A DNA stretch of 64,000 bases from Gillisia sp. Hel1_33_143. Its GTDB lineage: Bacteria > Bacteroidota > Bacteroidia > Flavobacteriales > Flavobacteriaceae. The stretch covers positions 2,108,001 through 2,172,000 of the forward strand of contig NZ_LT629737.1 of NCBI RefSeq assembly GCF_900104765.1, in the 5' to 3' direction. The notes under the pieces were generated by a model, which searched no databases, was not told the DNA's origin, and was given only the letters and a program-made list of their open reading frames with translations. How positions within the stretch are numbered: the first letter of the stretch is position 1; the number at the start of each line of letters is the position of its first letter. Below, piece after piece: positions 2,973 to 28,513 of the stretch. Both the position numbers and the translations under genes were made by a program.

Positions 2973-5900
2973 ATGAGAAATCTATTACTTCTTGTTTTTG
3001 GATTTTTTCTTCTTGGGCTTTCAGTAAAAGCTCAGCAAGGATTTCAATCTATCACCACTTTAAACCCGATATCAATAACTATAGATACAGGAGAAAAACC
3101 TCAATCTAAAGTTTGGCTATTTGAGGGTAAACATTGGACTATTCTACCATCTGCCGGAGGTACTTACCTTTGGAGACTAGATGGTGCATCTTGGGTTAAT
3201 GTTTTGAAAATATCTGATAAGATTTTTACCAAGGCAGATTGTAAACTGTATGGTAATACTATACATATAATTCTTTTAGAAGGGGAATATGTAGAATTAG
3301 TCTCACTAGAATTTAATTTTGGTCTTGCCCAGTATGAGCTTTGGTCTCAGCGTGGTTCCACCGTAGATGTATGGCTAGATGATGATGTGGAAACAGCAAC
3401 ATTAGATATAGATAGTACGGGAAAAATGTGGATTGCCTTTAATGGGGATGATGATAATTATGATTTTGATTACAATGGAGTAGAAGATGATAATATCTAT
3501 GTGGTTTACAGTGATGCGCCTTATACTACTTGGAGTACCAGAATGCTTATTGGTACCAATATTGGTGGAGATGATATTGGAGCAATTATAGCAATGCCCG
3601 GTAAAATAGGAGTTTTTTGGTCTGATCAAAATCTTGAAAGATTTATGTTTACATCTCATGTAGATGGAACCAATGAAGCTTCATGGACAACTATAGAAGC
3701 TGCAGCAGCTCAGTCTGCTTTAAATTCTGGTTTCGGGATGGCAGATGATCATTTAAATTTAGCATCGGCAACAGATGGAACTCTCTATGCCGCAATTAAA
3801 ACAGGATATGAAGATCTAAATTATCCGGAAATAGCACTATTAGTTAGAAGACCTAATGGGGTTTGGGATGATCTTTATATGGTATCCAACCTAGGTACAA
3901 GGCCTATTGTACTTTTAGATGAATCTACCGGTAAAGTTAAAGTGATCTATTCTGCTCATGATGGAGGAGGTAACATATTATATAAAGAATCTCCTATAGC
4001 CAATATTTCTTTTGGATCTGAAAAAGTGCTTATTAGTGGTTCGTATAACAACGCTACCAGTACAAAAGGGAATTATATTTCTGAGGTAGTAATACTAGCT
4101 TCTTCCGCAAATAAAGCAGTGGGGGTTTTAGCTTCAGATGGAGTATTCACTTCTATTCCCGATACACCAACTCTAAACCTGCCGTTGGCAGGTGAGATAG
4201 ATGTTATAAACGCACCAACACTAAACTGGAACTCTACTTTAGGAGCTACCACATATACTTTGGAAGTATCAGAATCTTCAGATTTTTCTGCTCTTTATTA
4301 TACTCAATCCAATATTACTCAAACTTCCAGTGTTCTAAATAATCTCACAGAAAACAATATTTATTACTGGCGTGTGAAGGCTACAAATAACGTAGGAGAT
4401 AGCGATTGGTCTATAATTAGAAATTTTACAACAAAGGAAAATCAGAGTGTAGATGAACTTGTGCTGCATTTAGAATTAAATGAGGGTTCTGGCAATTCTT
4501 TAGGAGACGCTTCAATATATATAAATAATGCTACATCATTTAATGATCCAACATGGGTTACAGATGCTACGGGTACTGCATTAAAATTTAATGGTAGTGA
4601 TCAATATTGCACCATTGGTGATAATGCTTCTCTAAATCTAACTCAAGCACTCACTATTTCTATGTGGATTAAACCCGATAAGCGGGATACCCAATATATT
4701 ATAAAAAAGGCGCTGGGAAATTCTACGGATGGGTATGAGCTTTCACTTTCCAGTGGAGGAAAAGCATTTTTTAGGTTTAATCAAGATTCTCATGGAAATG
4801 ATTTTAGATTGGATTCTCAAACAAATTATCCTTTTGACGGAAATACTTGGATGCATTTAGCCGCCACTTTTGATGGTACTATGATGAAGATCTATATAAA
4901 TGGTGTAGAAGATAGTGCAATTTCTTTAGCATCAACTCAATGGATAAATGTGAATCAACTTCCTTTATGGATCTCTTCAGAAAACGATGGTTATAGAGGT
5001 TTTAAAGGAGCTATGGACGATATATATATCTATAGCAAAGCTTTGAATAATACTGAAGTCTATGATCTATTCTCTTCAAGACAGATCCCTACAATAGCAG
5101 CGGTTCCAGAACTGCAATTACCTCAAGATAGTACGCTAGAGGTGGAGATTCCGGTTACTTTAAATTGGAATGCATCGGCTAATGCGGTTTCTTATAAAGT
5201 TCAGATAAGTGAAGATGTTAGCTTTGCCAGTAACATTTTTGAAGGGGCAGCTATTACAGCCACTTCTGTTGAGGTATCTAACTTAGAGAATAATGCTTCC
5301 TATTACTGGAGAATTCTTGCCACTAATTCTTTGGGAGACAGTAATTGGTCTTCCATTTGGAATTTCACTACCACCATGAAGTTGGCTGAGATTCCGGTTC
5401 TTGATTCACCACTAGATCTAGATTCAGAACAGCCTATAAATACTTTATTGAGCTGGAATTCAACAAAAGATGCGGCTTCCTATAAAGTTCAGGTAAGTGA
5501 TGATGTAAACTTTGCAACTACGGTTTTTGAAATAAGTAATTTAAACTATACCTATGTAGCTGTTGATAATTTAGCTGTTAGTACTTCCTATTATTGGAGA
5601 GTACTAGCAAGTAATGCTGTAGGTGAAAGTGATTGGTCTGCTATTTGGAATTTTACAACTACCTCCAATCCGGCCGAAGTTCCGGTGTTGGTATCACCAC
5701 TTGATCTGAGTACAGAACAGCCTAATAATTCAACCTTAAGCTGGTCTTCAGTAGCAGATGCTACCTCCTATAAGATTCAGGTGAGTGATGATGTTAATTT
5801 TGCAACCACTATTGTAGATATTACAGGTATTACTACAACTTCTGTAGAGATCACAAATTTAGCTAGTGACGCTTCTTATTATTGGCGGGTGCTTGCTAAC

Positions 5901-8180
5901 AGTGCTAGTGGAGATAGCAACTGGTCCACCGTTTGGAACTTCCACACAATAAATACAACTACACCAACTAATTTAGTAGCACATTATAAAATGAATGAAT
6001 CTTCGGGTGCTATGCTAGCAGATGATTCAGAAATTGCAAATACGGCCACCATTATGGGGAATCCGGTTAGAGTAAATGGAGTAGAAGGAGGGGCGGTAAG
6101 ATTTAATGGTGCAGATCAATACGCTATTGCAGGTGCTAATCTGGCCCTGAATCTCACCAATAGCTTAACTATAGCTACATGGATAAAGCCTGAGAAACGA
6201 GCTACTCAATATGTTATTAAAAAATCTGAACATAATGCTATAGATGGCTACGAATTATCATTATCCAGTAGCGGGAAAATATTTTTTAGGTTCAATCAGG
6301 CAACTTCCAACAATACTTACAGACTCAATTCTCAAGCATCCTATCCTATTGATGGAATTACATGGATGCATGTAGCAGTAACTTTTGATGGTACAACTAT
6401 GAACTTGTATATAAATGGAGTATTAGATAGCAGTAAATCTTATAGCGCAGCTACAGCTTTAGGTACAAATTCTATGACATTGGCTATTGGCTCTGGAAAT
6501 GATGGTTATAGAGGAATTTTAGGAGCAATGGATGATGTAAGAATTTATAATGTAGCGTTAAATGCAGCAGAAGTAAGCGCCATTGCTACAATAACAAGTT
6601 CTCCAAGTCCGCCAGAGATCCCATTGCAAGAATTACCGTTAGATCTTGCCAATAATGTTGAGGTAGATCCTACATTAACATGGAATGCTTCAGATGGAGC
6701 TCTTACTTATAATATTCAGGTGTCTAACAATAATTCATTTGCATCCTTTATCCTAGATCAGTCAGATCTAAGTGCCACTTCAATTGCGGTATCGGATCTT
6801 ACAAATAGTACTACTTATTACTGGCGGGTACGGGCAACGAATGCAGAAGGAGATAGTGCATGGTCTACAGTGCGTAGTTTTACTACCATCTCAAGCACCC
6901 CTATAATACCTGGAGTTCCTATTTTAGCTACTCCTGTAGATCTGGCAATAGATGTTTCTATAGCACCTACATTAAGTTGGAATACCTCATCTAGTGCATC
7001 TCATTATGCTATGCAGTTATCTGATGATCAAAATTTTTCTAATCTAATTCTAGATGAAAATAATATTAATCAAACTTTTTTAGATGCAACCAGATTATTG
7101 AACAATTCAACATATTACTGGCGAGTAAAAGCTATAAATACCGCGGGAGAAAGCGCATGGTCTGCTAACTGGTCTTTTTTAACATCAGTACCATCTACAA
7201 CAGGTTCTTTGGTAGCACATTATAAACTTGATGAGGGGTCTGGAACTGCAGTTATAGACGCAACTACCTATGCAAATAATGTAACTTTATCTGGCAATCC
7301 ATTATGGGTTCCGGGAAAAGAAGGTCAGGCTTTAAGGTTTAATGGTAACAATCAATACGGGACAGCTTTAGATCATCCATCTTTGAATATTTCTCAGCAA
7401 ATCACCATTTCTACGTGGATTAGACCAGAGAAAATAGGTACTCAATATCTCGTAAAAAAAGCCCAGCAAAATAGCGTAGATGGCTACGAGTTGTCATTAG
7501 CTAGTAGCGGAAAGATATTTTTTAGATTTAATCAGGCAACTTCCAATAACACTTATAGGTTAAATTCTCAAGCCAATTATCCTACCAATGGTACTACTTG
7601 GATGCATATAGCCGTTACTTATAATGGCACTGAAATTAATTTATATGTAAATGGAATTTTGGATAGCTCGAAATCTTATACCGCTACTCAGAATATAGTT
7701 ACTAACTCGTTGAACCTCGCAATAGGTGCCGGGCCAGATAGTTTTCGAGGAATTTTAGGGGGCATGGATGATATTAGAATTTTTAATGAGGCATTAGATG
7801 CTGTAGAAATTGGTAAAATCTATGATTTTAGTTCAACCATAAAAGCTTCTGCTAAAACTTTTAGTGCTAAATCTAATAGTTCTAATTCCCTTTTCAGCTC
7901 TAAAGATAATTCTGAAACAGCTCTAGGAACATATTTTATGTATCCAAATCCTTTTACGACCTCCGCAAATGTTCATTTCTCATTTTATGAGAACACAGAT
8001 TATAACCTTGTTCTTTATGATCTGAAAGGTTTAAAAGTGAAAGAAGTTAAAAAAGGAAAGGCGCTAAAGAATGTAGAAGAGACAGCTGTTTTGCAAGCTT
8101 CTTGGCTTTCTAAAGGTATTTATTTATTAAGATTAGAATCTAATAAAGAAGCCAAGAATTTGAGAGTGATACTTCAGTAA
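2973..8180 (+). CDS. Giant secreted protein: LamG and Fn3-like modules with T9SS sorting domain
   Basis: A 1735-residue protein with a signal peptide (about residues 1-20, ending VKAQQ). A beta-rich region (about 20-390) with propeller-like features follows. Next comes an Fn3-like module (393-490), LamG 1 (494-706), three tandem Fn3-like modules (710-998), LamG 2 (1000-1207), two more Fn3-like modules (1209-1408) and LamG 3 (1410-1620). Fn3 modules share YYWRV and a terminal W-F-T pattern; LamG modules share the GYELSLSS and FRFNQ segments. The C-terminus (about 1646-1735) begins YPNPF and ends in a Por-type sorting domain, so export by type IX secretion and surface attachment are expected. 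LamG/Fn3 architecture suggests carbohydrate binding or adhesion, possibly to the polymer made by this locus (inference). I see no catalytic motif. Confidence 0.9.
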   Translation: MRNLLLLVFGFFLLGLSVKAQQGFQSITTLNPISITIDTGEKPQSKVWLFEGKHWTILPSAGGTYLWRLDGASWVNVLKISDKIFTKADCKLYGNTIHIILLEGEYVELVSLEFNFGLAQYELWSQRGSTVDVWLDDDVETATLDIDSTGKMWIAFNGDDDNYDFDYNGVEDDNIYVVYSDAPYTTWSTRMLIGTNIGGDDIGAIIAMPGKIGVFWSDQNLERFMFTSHVDGTNEASWTTIEAAAAQSALNSGFGMADDHLNLASATDGTLYAAIKTGYEDLNYPEIALLVRRPNGVWDDLYMVSNLGTRPIVLLDESTGKVKVIYSAHDGGGNILYKESPIANISFGSEKVLISGSYNNATSTKGNYISEVVILASSANKAVGVLASDGVFTSIPDTPTLNLPLAGEIDVINAPTLNWNSTLGATTYTLEVSESSDFSALYYTQSNITQTSSVLNNLTENNIYYWRVKATNNVGDSDWSIIRNFTTKENQSVDELVLHLELNEGSGNSLGDASIYINNATSFNDPTWVTDATGTALKFNGSDQYCTIGDNASLNLTQALTISMWIKPDKRDTQYIIKKALGNSTDGYELSLSSGGKAFFRFNQDSHGNDFRLDSQTNYPFDGNTWMHLAATFDGTMMKIYINGVEDSAISLASTQWINVNQLPLWISSENDGYRGFKGAMDDIYIYSKALNNTEVYDLFSSRQIPTIAAVPELQLPQDSTLEVEIPVTLNWNASANAVSYKVQISEDVSFASNIFEGAAITATSVEVSNLENNASYYWRILATNSLGDSNWSSIWNFTTTMKLAEIPVLDSPLDLDSEQPINTLLSWNSTKDAASYKVQVSDDVNFATTVFEISNLNYTYVAVDNLAVSTSYYWRVLASNAVGESDWSAIWNFTTTSNPAEVPVLVSPLDLSTEQPNNSTLSWSSVADATSYKIQVSDDVNFATTIVDITGITTTSVEITNLASDASYYWRVLANSASGDSNWSTVWNFHTINTTTPTNLVAHYKMNESSGAMLADDSEIANTATIMGNPVRVNGVEGGAVRFNGADQYAIAGANLALNLTNSLTIATWIKPEKRATQYVIKKSEHNAIDGYELSLSSSGKIFFRFNQATSNNTYRLNSQASYPIDGITWMHVAVTFDGTTMNLYINGVLDSSKSYSAATALGTNSMTLAIGSGNDGYRGILGAMDDVRIYNVALNAAEVSAIATITSSPSPPEIPLQELPLDLANNVEVDPTLTWNASDGALTYNIQVSNNNSFASFILDQSDLSATSIAVSDLTNSTTYYWRVRATNAEGDSAWSTVRSFTTISSTPIIPGVPILATPVDLAIDVSIAPTLSWNTSSSASHYAMQLSDDQNFSNLILDENNINQTFLDATRLLNNSTYYWRVKAINTAGESAWSANWSFLTSVPSTTGSLVAHYKLDEGSGTAVIDATTYANNVTLSGNPLWVPGKEGQALRFNGNNQYGTALDHPSLNISQQITISTWIRPEKIGTQYLVKKAQQNSVDGYELSLASSGKIFFRFNQATSNNTYRLNSQANYPTNGTTWMHIAVTYNGTEINLYVNGILDSSKSYTATQNIVTNSLNLAIGAGPDSFRGILGGMDDIRIFNEALDAVEIGKIYDFSSTIKASAKTFSAKSNSSNSLFSSKDNSETALGTYFMYPNPFTTSANVHFSFYENTDYNLVLYDLKGLKVKEVKKGKALKNVEETAVLQASWLSKGIYLLRLESNKEAKNLRVILQ
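5103..5966 (+). repeat. Three tandem Fn3-like modules with an exact 288-base period
   Basis: Within the large secreted protein gene, modules beginning at 5103, 5391 and 5679 are each 288 bases (96 residues) apart. Each starts with a (V/I)P-E/V-L segment, carries SYKVQ or SYKIQ, and ends in a W-N-F-T/H-T stretch. The constant period indicates tandem duplication without internal indels. Two more distant modules at about 6600-7200 are less similar. Confidence 0.8.
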
Positions 8181-8219: not shown

Positions 8220-9773
8220 ATGAGAAATTCTAGCCTTCAATTTCAGGTAATTAACGAGGCCGCTATCAATAATCCAAATTCCTCCAAAGCGGGAGTTTAT
8301 ATCAATAAAGCGATACAGATATTACCAGAAAATCTTCAGAAAGAAATTCTTAGAAATCAATTTTTAAGACAAACATATCAGCATACAGCTAAAAAATATA
8401 GAGCCTTAAAAGGAATTTTAAAACCTTATAAATCTCCTAGAGTATTCGTTAAAAGAGGACTGTCTAGAGAACAATTTTTTATGATTCTAAATGAGAGAAG
8501 GATAAATTATGTGCTGCTAAGATGGTGGGAGAATTTTCCTGAAATACCTGAAGGGGAAGATATGGATATATTGATACAAGATGATCACAGAGATCGTATT
8601 CAAGATCTATTAACGTATACCGATAATAACACAGGATTAAAATGTGACATTTATACCGTTACCGGCAGTAATTATGGTGCGCACAAAGGAATTCCATACT
8701 ATCAGTCTAACCTTTCTCATCATCTTCTAGAAAGTAGAATCCTGTTTAAAGGAGTTTATGTGCCTTCACCCTCTATGTATTTTGCTTCTCTAACGTATCA
8801 TGCCCTGTTTCATAAAGGTGCAAATTCTGGATTAGAAGGCTTTAACAGAACAGCCTCTATTATTGAGCATGATTATTCTAAAGTATTAAAGAAGCAAATG
8901 CCCTTTCTAGAGCTAGAATTTAAACCAAATGTAGAGAATCTGTACAATTGGTTGAAAGATCAGAATTATTTACCGGCTGAAGATACATTATCGAAGTTGG
9001 TGGAGATCAAACCTGAACTTGCCAGATTTCAAGCCAGTCTATCTTCAGATATTAGAGGAGGGGAATTAATAGTATATGTAATTAGAGATCGGCTTTTAAA
9101 GGATAAGTTGGTTAAAGACCTTATGTTCTTTCTGAAAGATTCCTATTGTTTTGAGATTTTGGATCTTAAGATATTGAATTCTGAAGAAAGGAGAATTTGT
9201 TCTAGAAATATTAGAGGTGGTAAATGGGACAAAGGGCCCTTTAAGTATTCTGGAGGTTTGCCCGTAGCGGTGTTAAGTGTCTTTGATTATCACCCAAAAC
9301 CTTTAAGTGAGAAAGCTCTTCAAAAACAATCTAGAATGACCAATGTAAATAATCTAAATGCAAAATATGCTTTTAGATCATTGATAAACAATAGTTCGAA
9401 GATTAAAAAAAGCAATTACAATGGAGTACATTCTTCAGACAATGAGCAGGATGCTCTTTATTACCTTACGCTAATGGGAGAAAAGTATGTAAAGAAGATC
9501 AATTCAGAATTAGAAGTAAGAAGAAGTAGATATAGCAGAGAGTGGAACTTAGTAAAGTTATTAAGTTACAACGAGATCTATAAAGAGGAGCTTATTAAAT
9601 ATGAAGGAGCCTTAGCAATTTTAAAAACCTTTAGACCAGGAAAGGAAGAGCAATTTGATAAAGAATTATCTACAGTAGAAAATTCTGAAAAAGTCTTTAA
9701 AAATGAGCAATTACTTAAAAAGGGAAATGGGTTTCTAATAAAGTCGTTTTCAGAAGATCGTGTGCTAGCATGA
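8220..9773 (+). CDS. Unknown two-part protein: nucleotidyltransferase-like N-terminus, NDK-like C-terminus
   Basis: A 517-residue soluble protein that I do not recognise as a named family. Around residues 85-200 it has the layout of a nucleotidyltransferase fold, with an acidic pair in GEDMD (D114, D116). From about residue 280 the sequence follows nucleoside diphosphate kinase: a strand and helix resembling the NDK start (VIRDRLLKDKLV), a GLPVAVLSVF strand matching the SGPVVAMV region, and NGVHSSD with N401 and H404 where NDK has N-x-x-H-G-S-D. The NDK lysine in the KPDG loop appears to be replaced. It precedes a P-loop kinase-like gene by 41 bases within the polysaccharide locus. A role in activating or modifying a sugar or nucleotide is inference. 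Alternatively the C-terminal half may be a non-enzymatic NDK-like domain. Confidence 0.7.
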   Translation: MRNSSLQFQVINEAAINNPNSSKAGVYINKAIQILPENLQKEILRNQFLRQTYQHTAKKYRALKGILKPYKSPRVFVKRGLSREQFFMILNERRINYVLLRWWENFPEIPEGEDMDILIQDDHRDRIQDLLTYTDNNTGLKCDIYTVTGSNYGAHKGIPYYQSNLSHHLLESRILFKGVYVPSPSMYFASLTYHALFHKGANSGLEGFNRTASIIEHDYSKVLKKQMPFLELEFKPNVENLYNWLKDQNYLPAEDTLSKLVEIKPELARFQASLSSDIRGGELIVYVIRDRLLKDKLVKDLMFFLKDSYCFEILDLKILNSEERRICSRNIRGGKWDKGPFKYSGGLPVAVLSVFDYHPKPLSEKALQKQSRMTNVNNLNAKYAFRSLINNSSKIKKSNYNGVHSSDNEQDALYYLTLMGEKYVKKINSELEVRRSRYSREWNLVKLLSYNEIYKEELIKYEGALAILKTFRPGKEEQFDKELSTVENSEKVFKNEQLLKKGNGFLIKSFSEDRVLA

Positions 9774-9814
9774 TTTATAAAATTACCAAAATAAGCTTTA
9801 GAAAGATATAAATT

Positions 9815-10699
9815 ATGGCTAAGATTATTGAAATATGCGGAGTTCCTGGAGTTGGTAAGTCTACAATTTTTAGCGAATTGGAGAAAATTGAAAAGATCCA
9901 TGGCCATTGGAGAACGAGCTCTAATTTGAAGCCGCTTGGAGATAAAAGCAGAAGCGAATTCTTAGGTAGCATATGTTCTGATATTTTAAAAGGTAAAAAG
10001 CCTAGAAATAAGAGAACTAAGATGCTAGAATCTAATCTAGATTATATTAAACGAATTTACAGAACCTTGAAATTAGGGAGAAAATTTGTGGATACTTACG
10101 TTTTAAAAGAAGCTGGGTTAAGATTTATACAGGAATATCCAGAATATATTGATGCATGCTGGCAAAATATTTATTATAAGCAGTCTAAAAGTGCTAATGG
10201 CTTAGATCTTAGGTTTGAAAAAGCAGAATTTATTTATCTAATCTTAAAAAAGATTCAGGTTTTAATGGAACTAAAATCTAACAGGATCATGCTTATAGAC
10301 GAGGGGTTAATTAATTTGATTGATAGAGCTCTTTACGAAAGTAGTATTGAAATTAGTGAGGAATCTGAAATAAAAAAACGTGTAGATACTATGCCTTGGC
10401 CAAGTGCAATTGTATATGTGCAAACAGATCTAGATGAAATAGCAAATAGAATCCTTGGCAGAAAAGATATTAGAGATATGCACAGGAATTTAGATAGAAA
10501 TGAGCTGATGATGTTTACAGATAATGCGATGAAAAGAATTGAAATTGCTATTGAGCATCTTAAATCTTATGGGGTTCCTGTTTTAGATCTAGATTCATCA
10601 CATTCTGTGCAAAGCAATACCCAACAAATTATAGACTTCGCTACACTGCTTGGTAAGAATGAATTGGAAGTTGTTAACAAAGAGATTTTAGCAATCTAA
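9815..10699 (+). CDS. P-loop kinase-like protein
   Basis: A 294-residue protein opening with a beta strand and a Walker A motif, GVPGVGKST (residues 9-17). Later segments resemble small-molecule kinases of the thymidylate/adenylate kinase type: LIDEG near residue 167 as a Walker B-like strand, IVYVQTDLDEI as the last core strand, and an arginine-rich lid-like stretch (RILGRKD). No family-defining acceptor-binding motif is recognised, so the substrate is unknown. It lies 41 bases after the NDK-like protein and 3 bases before a glycosyltransferase, so it is very probably co-transcribed with both. A sugar or nucleotide kinase role in precursor supply is inference. Confidence 0.75.
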   Translation: MAKIIEICGVPGVGKSTIFSELEKIEKIHGHWRTSSNLKPLGDKSRSEFLGSICSDILKGKKPRNKRTKMLESNLDYIKRIYRTLKLGRKFVDTYVLKEAGLRFIQEYPEYIDACWQNIYYKQSKSANGLDLRFEKAEFIYLILKKIQVLMELKSNRIMLIDEGLINLIDRALYESSIEISEESEIKKRVDTMPWPSAIVYVQTDLDEIANRILGRKDIRDMHRNLDRNELMMFTDNAMKRIEIAIEHLKSYGVPVLDLDSSHSVQSNTQQIIDFATLLGKNELEVVNKEILAI

Positions 10700-10702
10700 A
10701 TT

Positions 10703-11554
10703 ATGAAGGTTTCTATTATTATACCAACTTTTAAGGACTGGGATAGGTTGAATTTGTGTTTGCAAGCATTGCAGCATCAAACCTATTCACATGATCTATT
10801 TGAGGTAATAGTAGTTAACAATGCACCAGAAGATCTAAAACCTAGAGATCTAGCAATTCCAGAAAATGGTACAGTAATAAATGAATTCAAACCAGGTTCT
10901 TATGCTGCCAGAAATGCAGCGCTTGCCATTTGCAAAGGGAGCATTGTTGGTTTTACAGATTCAGATTGTGTTCCAGACAAAAATTGGATTAGAAACGCAG
11001 TCGAGTACTTTAAAGAACATCCTGAAACGGAGAGAATTGGGGGTGCTATTCAAATATTTTATAAAGAGCGTAGACCTTCCAAGGTAGAATTGTATGATAA
11101 GATATTTGCATTTCCACAGAAAGCTTATGTGCAATCTGGTAACGCTGTAACTGCAAATATGTTCACTTATACAGAATCTTTTAATAAGATTGGATTATTT
11201 GATAGTAATCTGCTTTCCGGAGGCGATTACCAGTGGGGAAAAAGAGCGTATTTAGCAGGCTCTAAGATCGATTATGTACCAAATGTTTTGGTAAAACATC
11301 CTGCAAGACCTTCTGTAAAAGAATTAGTTATTAAAGCTAAAAGAGTAGGGAAGGGGCAGGCAAAATTTAGTAAGAACAAATCTAATGAGTCTTTTGGTTT
11401 ACTAAAATTGCTATCACTTTTTAAACCTAGACTCTGGGAGATTAAGATGATCTTCCAGAAAGAGCATAATATTGGACTGGTAAATAAACTATATCTGGTT
11501 TTTTTAAGGCATTATATAGTTTTGGTTGGAGATCTCTCTAGAATACGCAACTAA
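10703..11554 (+). CDS. Glycosyltransferase, family 2
   Basis: A 283-residue GT-A fold enzyme. The N-terminus VSIIIPTFKDW is the standard nucleotide-sugar binding strand, and TDSDC near residue 92 supplies the metal-binding DxD. GGDYQWGKRA near residue 175 matches the acceptor/catalytic-base region of the family. There is no transmembrane segment of note, so it should act at the cytoplasmic face of the inner membrane, adding one sugar to the lipid-linked repeat unit. The start is 3 bases after the previous stop. The sugar donor cannot be read from the sequence. Confidence 0.9.
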   Translation: MKVSIIIPTFKDWDRLNLCLQALQHQTYSHDLFEVIVVNNAPEDLKPRDLAIPENGTVINEFKPGSYAARNAALAICKGSIVGFTDSDCVPDKNWIRNAVEYFKEHPETERIGGAIQIFYKERRPSKVELYDKIFAFPQKAYVQSGNAVTANMFTYTESFNKIGLFDSNLLSGGDYQWGKRAYLAGSKIDYVPNVLVKHPARPSVKELVIKAKRVGKGQAKFSKNKSNESFGLLKLLSLFKPRLWEIKMIFQKEHNIGLVNKLYLVFLRHYIVLVGDLSRIRN

Positions 11555-16080: not shown

Positions 16081-17320
16081 ACTAATAGTATCTCATCCTA
16101 CAGGGAATGCGAATGTAAGAGCATTAATCTTTTCTTTGGCAGAAAATGGATTATTACATCATTTCTATACCAGCATAGCTTTTTTTGAATCTAGTTTTGT
16201 CTATAGATTTTTAAATTTTAAACTGTTATCAGAGTTAAAAAAAAGAACATTTCCTGCAAATATTAGAAACCTGACATCTAATAGACCAACTAAGGAAATT
16301 TTAAGACTTGTTCTTCAAAAGCTTAATCATACAAAATATACACATCATGAAACGGGTCTGTTTTGTATTGATAAGGTTTATAAAGATCTAGATAAATATG
16401 TTGCCAGAAATATCAATAAAGAAACCATTGTTTATTCTTTTGAAGATGGAGCTTTAGAGAATTTTAGAATAGCTAAAACTAAAGGTGTGGATTGTTTTTA
16501 CGACCTGCCTATTGGATATTGGAGAGCTATGCGTGATCTTTTGGAGGAGGAAAGAATTAAAAACCCAGAGTGGGCCAGCACTATGGAAACCTTTAAAGAT
16601 TCTGAAGTAAAATTGCTAAAAAAGGATAAAGAGATAGCGCTCGCAGATCACATATTTGTGGCGAGTTCATTTACCAAGAAAACCTTAGAATTCTATCCAG
16701 GTATAACGCCTGAAATTTCAGTGATACCCTATGGGTTTCCTCCAGTATTTGAACAAAGGAAATACCAACCACTTAGAAATAGAAAACTTAAAATTTTATT
16801 TGTAGGCGGATTATCCCAAAGAAAAGGAATTTCCTATCTGTTTGAAGCCATGAAAGTTTTGAAGGAAAGGGTTTCATTAACAGTAGTAGGTAAAGAACCA
16901 GTTAAGAATTGCAAAATTCTCTATAAGAATCTCGAAGAACATCAATGGATTTCTGCGCTTTCTCATGCAGAGATATTAGAAACTATGCGCAATAATGATG
17001 TTTTGATTTTCCCATCCCTTTTTGAAGGTTTTGGGTTGGTTATTACCGAAGCTATGTCTCAGGGAACTCCAGTTATTACTACGAACAGAACTTGTGGAGC
17101 AGATCTAATTTCTAATGAAATAGATGGGTGGATAATTTCTCCGGGTTCTACTACTGCTATTGTAGAGAAGATAAATGAGATCCTGGAAGATCCTTTATCT
17201 TTAGAAAATGTTGGTAAAATGGCTATGGTAAAAGCAAGAACAAGACCATGGAAAGTATATGGTGAAGAAATGGTAGTAGCTATAAAATCTTATGTAAATA
17301 ATAAAACTGAGAATAATTGA
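16067..17320 (+). CDS. Glycosyltransferase, family 4
   Basis: A 417-residue GT-B enzyme with an N-terminal region typical of retaining exopolysaccharide transferases (IVSHPTGNANVRAL). FVGGLSQRKGI begins the donor domain, and FEGFGLVITEAMSQG is a textbook E-x7-E motif. The ATG at 16067 lies inside the end of the preceding gene (14-base overlap), and the stop TGA overlaps the next gene's start by four bases. Both overlaps support a single transcript. The sugar transferred is unknown. Confidence 0.9.
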   Translation: MKETRLIVSHPTGNANVRALIFSLAENGLLHHFYTSIAFFESSFVYRFLNFKLLSELKKRTFPANIRNLTSNRPTKEILRLVLQKLNHTKYTHHETGLFCIDKVYKDLDKYVARNINKETIVYSFEDGALENFRIAKTKGVDCFYDLPIGYWRAMRDLLEEERIKNPEWASTMETFKDSEVKLLKKDKEIALADHIFVASSFTKKTLEFYPGITPEISVIPYGFPPVFEQRKYQPLRNRKLKILFVGGLSQRKGISYLFEAMKVLKERVSLTVVGKEPVKNCKILYKNLEEHQWISALSHAEILETMRNNDVLIFPSLFEGFGLVITEAMSQGTPVITTNRTCGADLISNEIDGWIISPGSTTAIVEKINEILEDPLSLENVGKMAMVKARTRPWKVYGEEMVVAIKSYVNNKTENN

Positions 17321-18600
17321 ATGATGAAACAATTACAATAGTTAAAAAAGCTATTTGGCTCTACTTCTGGCTTCTTATCTTTGAAGGAGCTTTAAGAAAA
17401 TGGGTTTTGCCCGGACTGGCAGAGCCATTACTAATAATAAGAGACCCTTTAGCAATTTATATCATTTTTAAGGTTGCTCAAAAAAATATATGGCGTCCAA
17501 ATAACTACGTGAAATTTATTTGGGGTATCACCATCCTGTCGCTAATATTTACGTTGTATGTAGGCCATGGAAATTTGATTGTAGCCTTTTATGGGATGAG
17601 AATTACCATGATACATTTTCCTTTATTATTCGTTATAGGCCATGTTTTTAATAGAGATGATGTTTTAAAAATGGGTAAGGTCATTTTATATCTTTGTATA
17701 GGAATGACTGTTCTTGTGGCTATACAATTTTTTAGTCCGCAGTCTGCTTGGGTAAATAGAGGAGTAGGTGGAGATATGGCTGGGTCTGGGTTTGGTGCAG
17801 TTCGAGATTTTTATAGAGTTCCTGGAACATTCTCATTTACAAACGGACTTGCGCTCTTTTACGGACTTTCTTCAGCCTTTATTTTTTACTTTCTAATTGG
17901 TGAGAATAAAGAGCAAGTATCAAAACTACTTCTAGCCTTTGCTGCAATTTCTTTAGTGATAGCCATTCCTTTAAGTATAAGTAGAACCATCCTTTTGCAG
18001 ACTGTTTTAAGCTTAATATTTCTATTCTTAAGTTCTGGAAAAAGTTCTCAGCTCATTAAAAAATTTGTTGCTATAATCTTTGCCGCAGCTATTTTGCTGA
18101 TAGGTCTTAACAAATTTAATTTTTTTCAAACAGCTAGTTCTGTATTTTCAGAGCGTATTGAGATTGCCAGCAAAACTGAAGGAGGTATTGAGGGTACTAT
18201 AGTAGATAGATTACTTGGTGGAATGTACAGTGCTGTGGCAGATCCAGAAAATTCTTATCTGGGATTGGGATTAGGATTAGGAAGTAAGGTGGCTTCTAAA
18301 TTGCTTACCGGTGGGACTGCTGCTTATTTGTTGCCGGAGGGTGAGTGGGGAAGGATTATTGGAGAAATGGGACTTTTACTAGGCTTATTACTTATTCTAA
18401 CCCGAATTGGCCTAGTGTTAGAATTCTTTAAAGGATCCTGGGTTTCTATAGGGAATTCTAATGTATTACCATGGTTGCTTTTAAGTTTTGGGGCTATCAC
18501 CATTTTACAAGGTCAATGGTCTCAGCCTACAGCGCTGGGTTTTAGTATATTAATTGGAGGTTTAATTTTAGCAGCATTTAAACAACCTGAGACCACGTGA
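17317..18600 (+). CDS. Wzy-type polysaccharide polymerase / O-antigen ligase family membrane protein
   Basis: A 427-residue polytopic membrane protein with about ten to eleven hydrophobic helices and one larger hydrophilic loop (about residues 245-335), the layout of the Wzy/WaaL superfamily. FRVPGTF-like spacing around residue 168 and the glycine-rich GLGLGLGSK loop near 310 fit this group. In the inner membrane it would polymerise repeat units on the periplasmic side. The start is taken as TTG at 17317 (TTGA overlap with the previous stop) because the nearby ATGs at 17321 and 17324 are in another frame and the first in-frame ATG would delete the first helices. As this is the only such protein here, polymerase is more likely than ligase. 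Confidence 0.85.
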   Translation: MNDETITIVKKAIWLYFWLLIFEGALRKWVLPGLAEPLLIIRDPLAIYIIFKVAQKNIWRPNNYVKFIWGITILSLIFTLYVGHGNLIVAFYGMRITMIHFPLLFVIGHVFNRDDVLKMGKVILYLCIGMTVLVAIQFFSPQSAWVNRGVGGDMAGSGFGAVRDFYRVPGTFSFTNGLALFYGLSSAFIFYFLIGENKEQVSKLLLAFAAISLVIAIPLSISRTILLQTVLSLIFLFLSSGKSSQLIKKFVAIIFAAAILLIGLNKFNFFQTASSVFSERIEIASKTEGGIEGTIVDRLLGGMYSAVADPENSYLGLGLGLGSKVASKLLTGGTAAYLLPEGEWGRIIGEMGLLLGLLLILTRIGLVLEFFKGSWVSIGNSNVLPWLLLSFGAITILQGQWSQPTALGFSILIGGLILAAFKQPETT

Positions 18601-27454: not shown

Positions 27455-28513
27455 ATGCAATCCACAACCTTAAGATACTGTAAAGTAAGCGAAATTGGTA
27501 TTGGATTTTGCCTTCTTATGAGCTTTATATTTATACATTCTTCGTGCACTTCACAAGTAAAAGGTGATAACACTACTGCGCAAATCATAACAGAAAAAAC
27601 AGATTATGATACCGATGATCCGGCGATATGGTTTAATAAAAAAGATTCTTCTAAGAGTATAATTTTTGGTACCGATAAAAATTCTGATGGAGCAGTTTAT
27701 GCTTTCGATCTCGATGGGAAAATAATAAAAGATAAGGTTCTTAAAGGTTTAGCGTACCCAAATAATATTGATATAGAATATGCTGTTGCTACAATTAATG
27801 ATGTTCTCGTAGATATTCTAGTTGTTTCAGAAAGAGATAAGCATCAAATAAGAATTTTCTCCGTTCCAGATATGAAACCTATAGATAACGGTGGGCTGAA
27901 GGTTTTTGAAAATGAAACTAAGAAATCTTTTAATTTACCCATGGGGATAGCCATTTATAAATCACCATTAGATGGAACGGTTTATATAATAATTAGTAGA
28001 AAAAATGGGCCTCAATATGATTATCTGTATCAATATAAATTGATTGCTCTTAAAGGAAATTTTAAAATTGAACTTGTAAGGAAGTTTGGGGAATTCAGCC
28101 AAAAAAAAGAAATAGAATCTATAGCGGTAGATGATGAGTTGGGCTTTATTTATTATTCTGATGAAACTTATGGCATTCGGAAGTATTATGCTGAACCAAA
28201 TTTAGGAAATAAGGAGGTTGGAAGTTTTGGACATAAGATCTTTAAACGGGATAGTGAGGGGATTGCTATAATACCTAGAGATAAAGGATTGGGTTATATC
28301 ATAGTTTCCAATCAACAAAATGATACATTTAGTGTTTTTACAAGAGATACTAATCAATATATAAAAGATATAGATTTAGGTACGAAACAGTCAGATGGAT
28401 GCGAATTTTCTTCTTTAATAGGAAATAAAAATTTTGAGAAAGGTCTTTTTGTAGCTATGGACAATGATAAAACCTTTCATTTTATCAATTTGAATTTATA
28501 TCAATTAGACTAA
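27455..28513 (+). CDS. Beta-propeller phytase-like lipoprotein
   Basis: A 352-residue protein with a lipobox at C31 (IHSSC), so it should be exported and membrane-anchored. The domain matches beta-propeller (3-)phytase: DDPAIW (residues 54-59), IIFGTDKN, NNIDIEY, then ESIAVDDELGFIYYSDETYGI and SDGCEF, the acidic loops that bind calcium and phosphate in this family. Such enzymes hydrolyse phytate to release phosphate. The ATG follows the wzc stop with no gap, so it should be co-transcribed with the polysaccharide genes, an unexpected partner; it could act on another phosphate ester linked to the polymer (inference). Confidence 0.85.
   Translation: MQSTTLRYCKVSEIGIGFCLLMSFIFIHSSCTSQVKGDNTTAQIITEKTDYDTDDPAIWFNKKDSSKSIIFGTDKNSDGAVYAFDLDGKIIKDKVLKGLAYPNNIDIEYAVATINDVLVDILVVSERDKHQIRIFSVPDMKPIDNGGLKVFENETKKSFNLPMGIAIYKSPLDGTVYIIISRKNGPQYDYLYQYKLIALKGNFKIELVRKFGEFSQKKEIESIAVDDELGFIYYSDETYGIRKYYAEPNLGNKEVGSFGHKIFKRDSEGIAIIPRDKGLGYIIVSNQQNDTFSVFTRDTNQYIKDIDLGTKQSDGCEFSSLIGNKNFEKGLFVAMDNDKTFHFINLNLYQLD

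Follow-up and report, generated by a model that had tools for sequence, protein, structure and literature searches.

Nucleoside diphosphate kinases (NDK, PF00334) carry out textbook housekeeping chemistry with a phosphohistidine as the established intermediate, and GalT/HIT enzymes proceed through a nucleoside monophosphate (NMP)-histidine intermediate. FKP and HldE are bifunctional kinase–nucleotidyltransferases, one protein serving sugar activation. We analysed a stretch of 64,000 nucleotides from Gillisia sp. Hel1_33_143 (contig NZ_LT629737.1, positions 2,108,001 to 2,172,000 of the forward strand; hereafter the window). An exopolysaccharide locus in this window contains a gene for a 517-residue protein in which a nucleotidyltransferase (NTase)-like domain is fused to an NDK-like domain. 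Like FKP and HldE, it would unite a kinase with nucleotidyl transfer, but these two have other folds and are not known to contain an NDK domain. The histidine site of the NDK-like domain is conserved in relatives with the NTase domain and decayed in relatives that have lost it. We tentatively read the protein as the leftover of a three-enzyme fusion of a Pol-beta-type NTase, an NDK-fold histidine phosphotransferase and an eroded protein-kinase-like domain; taken as a whole with the function proposed below, this reading falls somewhat short of an even chance.

Two described systems resemble the surroundings of the gene family. For the type A flagellin glycan of Clostridioides difficile (CD0240-CD0244), the published proposal comprises N-acetylglucosamine (GlcNAc), cytidine diphosphate (CDP)-threonine and a TagF-like transferase, with CD0242 as proposed cytidylyltransferase and CD0241 as a phosphatase-like protein (PMC10714395). 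The likeness concerns the layout only: a glycosyltransferase, a methyltransferase and nucleotidyl or phosphate steps at two related loci (L027, L137), or a TagF-like transferase with a cytidylyltransferase in Halomonadaceae, in each case towards a phosphate-linked unit; the enzymes are different ones. SbnI and SerK are free serine kinases with a ParB fold (PMC12704722). They resemble a partner gene of several family members, not the NTase–NDK protein.

Domain architecture of the 517-residue protein

The open reading frames given in the initial annotation, 8220..9773 (517 residues) and 9815..10699 (294 residues), both on the + strand, were exact, and so was its numbering of D114, D116, N401, H404 and D407. 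The first gene has the following features:

8220..9773, + strand: gene of the NTase–NDK-like–(kinase remnant) protein, open reading frame of 517 residues, homologues found
8439..9053, + strand: NTase-like domain, residues 74-278; pLDDT (predicted local distance difference test) of the model 88.8, top Foldseek rows Pol-beta-type NTases, weak
8559..8567, + strand: acidic pair D114 and D116 of the NTase, from sequence and alignment
8646..8648, + strand: third acid D143 of the NTase (KCDIYT), from the alignment
9054..9536, + strand: NDK-like domain, residues 279-439, from the AlphaFold2 model, Foldseek and hhalign
9084..9086, + strand: R289, hhalign partner of the KPDG lysine, Arg in 20/20 NTase-bearing relatives
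9375..9377, + strand: R386, hhalign partner of the NDK arginine in GTIR, from the profile alignment
9420..9440, + strand: motif N401-G-V-H404-S-S-D407, from sequence and alignments
9528..9755, + strand: remnant protein-kinase-like N-lobe, residues 437-512, E 1e-12 to a hidden Markov model (HMM) of the relatives' kinase domain; C-lobe gone

None of the Pfam and NCBIfam models recognised the protein; the best matches (E 0.018 in Pfam, 0.047 in NCBIfam) were to unrelated families. From the model, residues 74-278 are likely an NTase, short of proof. The first seven Foldseek rows of this domain were antibiotic nucleotidyltransferases, an NTase toxin complex, a viral poly(A) polymerase and a cyclic-dinucleotide synthase, all weak, with ANT(2'')-Ia first (E 0.062, probability 0.69). 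The acidic pair, described earlier as lying in an NTase-like layout, was borne out; together with D143 it makes up the expected set of acids. Pol-beta-type small-molecule NTases (ANT(2'')-Ia, LnuA, MenT; NTP_transf_5) share these acids and are the best, though weak, structural matches; they differ in that no family model recognises the domain described here, and the comparison of L029 with NTP_transf_5 (E 0.11) was not significant. All three acids were present in 16 of the 21 members with NTase and NDK-like domains; the set was lost in L118, L119, L120 and L143, and the broken L138 is without the third acid. Related NTase domains were also seen fused to other kinases in the same bacterial order, at L003:1021-2883 (protein-kinase-like) and L004:1468-2808 (thymidylate-kinase-like, below the cut-off).

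The NDK-like domain

According to an AlphaFold2 model of the whole protein (12-row alignment, mean pLDDT 84.1), the NDK-like domain has the NDK fold. Foldseek listed 50 PDB matches for the model. The names NDK, NME, nm23 or Awd applied to 49 of them, and the remaining one was a chain from a radial-spoke complex; the top match had an E-value of 1.9e-3 and a probability of 1.00. PF00334 gave no match to the protein up to E 5 and detected in the window's own genome only the ordinary NDK, one copy located elsewhere. Profile comparison by hhalign yielded E 0.0093 for 12 rows against 30 NDKs (best of 20 shuffles 0.018) and E 0.0065 for 19 rows against 37 of 38 ordinary NDKs, one having failed the motif filter. 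The latter alignment was collinear over 108 columns with a probability of 6% and a score of 22.3, compared with a maximum of 21.25 in 100 column shuffles, 11.3 for the reversed profile, 12.8 for the NTase domain and 13.4 for the kinase domain.

In both hhalign alignments, the Asn, His and Asp of NxxHGSD were matched by N401, H404 and D407, the GTIR arginine by R386 and the KPDG lysine by R289. H404, D407 and R386 occurred in 12/12 aligned proteins, the relatives among them being 25-56% identical to the window's, and N401 in 11/12; in the NTase-bearing rows H404 and D407 were found in 20/20 and N401 in 18/20. This invariance bears out, beyond chance, the N401-x-x-H404-x-S-D407 pattern that had been picked out by eye. 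The position following H404, Gly in NDK, was Ser in 18/20 rows and otherwise Cys or Thr, thus HGSD is mostly replaced by HS[SACT]D. The lysine of KPDG (K12) was not kept, as had been observed before; the invariant R289 stands at its aligned place in 20/20 rows. Further invariant elements are W336, R[GS]G[KN]W and SGGxP, and we know of no NDK counterpart of W336 and SGGxP. The predicted fold, NxxH with the following D, the GTIR arginine and the collinear profile are shared with NDK, whereas the missing Pfam match, the Arg, the altered motifs and the fusion to an NTase set the family apart. We accept the NDK fold and exclude the domain from the ordinary NDKs, because the profile and the KPDG lysine do not agree with these. 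The NDK likeness that had been ascribed to the whole C-terminal half holds for residues 279-439, where fold and profile support it, and not for the kinase N-lobe behind them (437-512). The suggested profile search came close to finding no relation to NDK; the predicted fold speaks for one.

NTase loss and the decayed histidine site

R289, R386, H404 and D407 were all kept in 20/20 NTase-bearing rows and in 0/15 NTase-less relatives from Halomonadaceae (13 plus L134 and L135), which retain the kinase domain. The 20 rows include four degenerate NTases (L118, L119, L120, L143) and the NDK-like piece of L138, which stems from a broken gene; L021 was left out. All ten site residues checked were kept in 15 of these rows. 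At the position of H404 the 15 NTase-less proteins had His (7), Tyr (4), Asp (2) or Ser (2); L134 and L135 do have the NDK-like domain, but neither retains the complete set of four residues. Among the other 13, mean identity was 91.7% in the kinase part versus 52.6% in the NDK-like part, and the ratio of NDK-like to kinase divergence amounted to 6.15, compared with 1.32 in the eight NTase-bearing Halomonadaceae. A search of the 15 NTase-less genomes for an NTase domain at E 1e-5 had no match in 13 and a weak partial match in two. In a tree calculated without L134, L135, L021 and L138, the 13 NTase-less proteins formed one branch (100/100), thus the NTase was probably lost once and the site then decayed along several lines. 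Two of the four loci with a degenerate NTase, L118 and L143, carry an intact stand-alone NTase gene alongside. This shared fate suggests that the NTase and the NDK-like site serve one reaction path.

The eroded kinase domain and the distribution of relatives

Residues 437-512, modelled as strands and a helix, keep the kinase Lys and Glu of the N-lobe and are without catalytic loop and C-lobe; 41 bases separate the stop codon from the next gene. Relatives such as L026 and L141 have the complete set of kinase residues (Lys, Glu, catalytic Asp, DFG-type Asp). The L026 domain matched APH, Pkinase, ABC1 and RIO1 with E-values of 1.4e-4 to 9.3e-4, all below the cut-offs, and the family kinase profile matched solved protein kinases with E 4e-8. 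The catalytic Asp is lost in L020, L022 and L023, and the whole domain is gone in L018, L019 and L029. Three transfer modules side by side had been proposed for the window. An NTase, an NDK-like domain and a P-loop kinase are indeed present, but the eroded kinase domain had been overlooked, and many relatives combine NTase, NDK-like and kinase domains in one protein as three-domain enzymes. In L029/L140 (Verrucomicrobiia), which have no fused kinase, stand-alone kinase-like genes lie just upstream, three by eye and two by the family HMM (E 9e-4).

The relatives are rare and patchily distributed over Bacteroidota, Balneolota, Halomonadaceae and Verrucomicrobiota. When 84,980 species of a collection were scanned with a sequence pattern, 12 loci were obtained, which belong to these four groups. 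Three of 16 Gillisia genomes have members, the window's own included. Matches occurred in 55 Bacteroidota genomes: five, of 395 sampled, with NTase and NDK-like domains, one (G1232) with the NTase only and 49 with the kinase part only (from model position 408 on), which were dropped as generic kinases. In Halomonadaceae, members were found in 23 of 250 genomes, eight with three domains and 15 with NDK-like and kinase domains only. Phages, plasmids and viral contigs were searched and contained no relatives. Two candidates, L012 and L013, were false matches in other reading frames with internal stops. In L027 and L137 a single protein unites TPR, GT41, FkbM, NTase, NDK-like and kinase domains, and its gene adjoins flagellin/FliD genes. 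The family gene of L021 (Gillisia marina) is split into three open pieces, a pseudogene or a sequencing error. In the one open-licence library searched, no paper combined the terms 'nucleoside diphosphate kinase domain' and 'nucleotidyltransferase domain'.

The P-loop kinase and the gene company

Two genes follow on the NTase–NDK gene:

9815..10699, + strand: P-loop kinase of 294 residues with the Walker A motif GVPGVGKST and with R212 and R216
10703..11554, + strand: GT2 glycosyltransferase, adjoining the P-loop gene in the window, L018, L020 and L141

The clear Walker A motif and the lid-like arginines recognised earlier are conserved: G9, G12, G14 and K15 as well as R212 and R216 were found in 7/7 aligned proteins. 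Pfam matches of the P-loop kinase were below the cut-offs and PDB matches covered mainly P-loop stretches, one being a thymidylate kinase (E 1.7e-4). The GT2 gene was not found adjoining the P-loop gene in L019 and L021. A recurrence of the pair of NTase–NDK and P-loop kinase genes in other loci had been suggested as a check, and it was found in L018-L021 and L141. The exopolysaccharide setting is borne out by the window's glycosyltransferases, its initiating sugar-phosphate transferase, an export protein and a tyrosine autokinase for chain length.

Gene company was assessed by tblastn in flanks of 4.9 to 19.8 kb and in the 64-kb window. The P-loop kinase accompanied 6/21 loci with NTase and NDK-like domains (the window, L018-L021, L141) and 0/15 NTase-less loci. 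A glycerol-3-phosphate cytidylyltransferase was present in 6/21 (all six among the eight Halomonadaceae) versus 2/15, and a TagF-like transferase in 5/21 (all Halomonadaceae) versus 2/15. Of four cytidylyltransferases compared with TIGR01518, three passed the cut-off and L141 fell short (157.9 vs 165.4). An uncatalogued family with a GxHR motif recurs in the loci (L025:6972-7934, L020:6916-7809, L019:9412-10299, others). Its three best PDB matches were SbnI chains (E 7.4e-4, 0.32 and 0.33) over about 40 residues; Pfam gave no significant match for the 11 members scanned.

Proposed function and alternative explanations

The best explanation, tentative as it is, sees a composite phosphoryl/nucleotidyl transferase that would make a phosphate-linked decoration of surface glycans. 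The family would act in a small-molecule or glycan phosphorylation or activation pathway of exopolysaccharide loci and elsewhere probably in flagellin glycosylation. The domain architecture, the conserved residues, the neighbouring genes and the decayed NDK-like site of NTase-less relatives are observed, whereas all reactions and the substrate are inferred. The NTase would move NMP from a nucleoside triphosphate (NTP) onto a phosphorylated acceptor. The NDK-like domain may move a phosphoryl group, via phospho-H404, to or from the substrate or product of the NTase, and the P-loop kinase, replacing the lost kinase domain, would phosphorylate the acceptor. The product would be an activated, phosphate-linked unit to be added to the polymer by glycosyl- or phosphotransferases. 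Judging by the neighbouring genes, this path would lead to surface glycans, and in some lineages its chemistry would be of the CDP-glycerol type. A phosphate-linked, nucleotide-activated decoration is favoured because of the shared fate of NTase and NDK-like site, the gene company and the parallel in layout to C. difficile. The initial annotation had proposed an undescribed route by which a component of a sugar or polymer kind is activated or phosphorylated; this is still a proposal, now narrowed by the linked fate of the two domains, by CDP-glycerol-type genes beside most NTase-bearing Halomonadaceae and by the flagellar fusions. If true, it would mean a new use of phosphohistidine chemistry, with an NDK-fold site kept in company of the NTase and decaying without it, and would be a sign of a phosphate-linked decoration of surface polymers that has gone unrecognised. 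With NTase loss, decay of the NDK-like site and kinase erosion, the family is a natural experiment in which the division of labour can be tested.

Several observations weigh against this explanation. Foldseek gave no match with E <0.001, neither for the NDK-like model among the 50 PDB matches listed nor for the NTase domain, and the link to NDK on the level of sequence profiles is weak. In the NTase, LRW precedes the acids where hG[GS], the usual motif of Pol-beta-type NTases, is expected. The loss of the NTase was seemingly a single event and not a series of independent losses. L119 (G1064) and L120 (G1004) kept the NDK-like site although the only NTase of these genomes is degenerate, thus the coupling tracks the presence of the NTase domain and not its acids. 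SbnI-like genes are about equally common with and without the NTase (8/21 vs 6/15), and the window's genome has none. Cytidylyltransferase and TagF-like genes occurred in none of the 13 loci outside Halomonadaceae, the whole 64-kb window included, and the NTase-less L134 and L135 both carry them, which weakens the link to CDP-glycerol. The P-loop gene was not in the flanks of L022 and L140, where the kinase is dead or absent, and stands in L141 beside an intact-looking kinase, so its role as replacement for the kinase domain is only loosely founded.

Among the alternatives, activation of a nucleoside diphosphate (NDP)-sugar with a built-in NTP regenerator survives best, unlikely as it appears. 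A kinase would form the sugar phosphate, the NTase the NDP-sugar, and the NDK-like domain would recharge NDP to NTP. Kinase and NTase modules within a polysaccharide locus agree with this scheme, as do the fusions of such NTase domains to other kinases in L003 and L004. Local recharging seems needless, however, because an ordinary NDK was present in 39/39 genomes searched with PF00334 and in 12/14 control genomes. The replaced K12 and the additional invariant residues (W336, SGGxP) suggest another substrate, and by the weak Foldseek matches the NTase is nearer to acceptor-modifying NTases than to sugar-nucleotide pyrophosphorylases.

A more specific form of the phosphate-decoration proposal is distinctly unlikely in all its detail. 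In this form the NDK fold would have turned into a dedicated histidine phosphotransferase working only with the NTase, and a nucleotide-activated, phosphodiester-linked unit (e.g., a phospho-amino acid or phospho-polyol) would be made. Exopolysaccharides would receive this unit in Bacteroidota and Halomonadaceae, flagellin in Balneolota and a relative.

It is improbable that the protein is a regulator whose kinase-like and NTase domains modify the polymer machinery by phosphorylation or AMPylation, with the NDK-like domain sensing or reversing the modification. The protein-kinase fold of the relatives would fit such a role, as would two Foldseek matches of the NTase, one to the MenAT1 toxin complex (E 0.10) and a weak one to a cyclic-dinucleotide synthase (E 0.38), but the glycan-building neighbours in the window and the fusions to GT41 and FkbM in L027 and L137 favour biosynthesis, and no partner target was seen. 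More improbable still, the histidine of the NDK-like domain may carry a nucleotidyl group as in GalT/HIT enzymes and perform the second half of the NTase reaction. The common fate of both domains and the change of the lysine that helps to bind NTP in NDK are compatible with an NMP-histidine, but R386, N401, H404 and D407 all align to NDK, where the histidine is phosphorylated. Least probable is that the NDK-like domain is non-catalytic and serves the NTase only as a structural or nucleotide-binding scaffold; the weak sequence relation to NDK could be quoted in favour, but H404, R386 and D407 are invariant in 20/20 NTase-bearing relatives diverged to about 25% identity.

Other genes of the locus

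One further feature lies upstream of the NTase–NDK gene:

2973..8180, + strand: large secreted LamG/fn3 protein that has a type IX sorting tail; homologous pieces near the family members in L018, L021 and L136

A homologous piece of the LamG/fn3 protein was also present in L152, where genome G400 (same genus) has an SbnI-like match. Directly 3' of the chain-length kinase gene, 27455-28513 code for a Phytase-domain protein (PF02333, 106.9 bits), which we take to be of the beta-propeller type; L143 has a 26% identical relative. Within the run of glycosyltransferase genes, 17317-18600 code for a protein of 427 residues that had no Pfam or NCBIfam match and has relatives in L018, L019 and L021; as a guess, it is possibly the polymerase.

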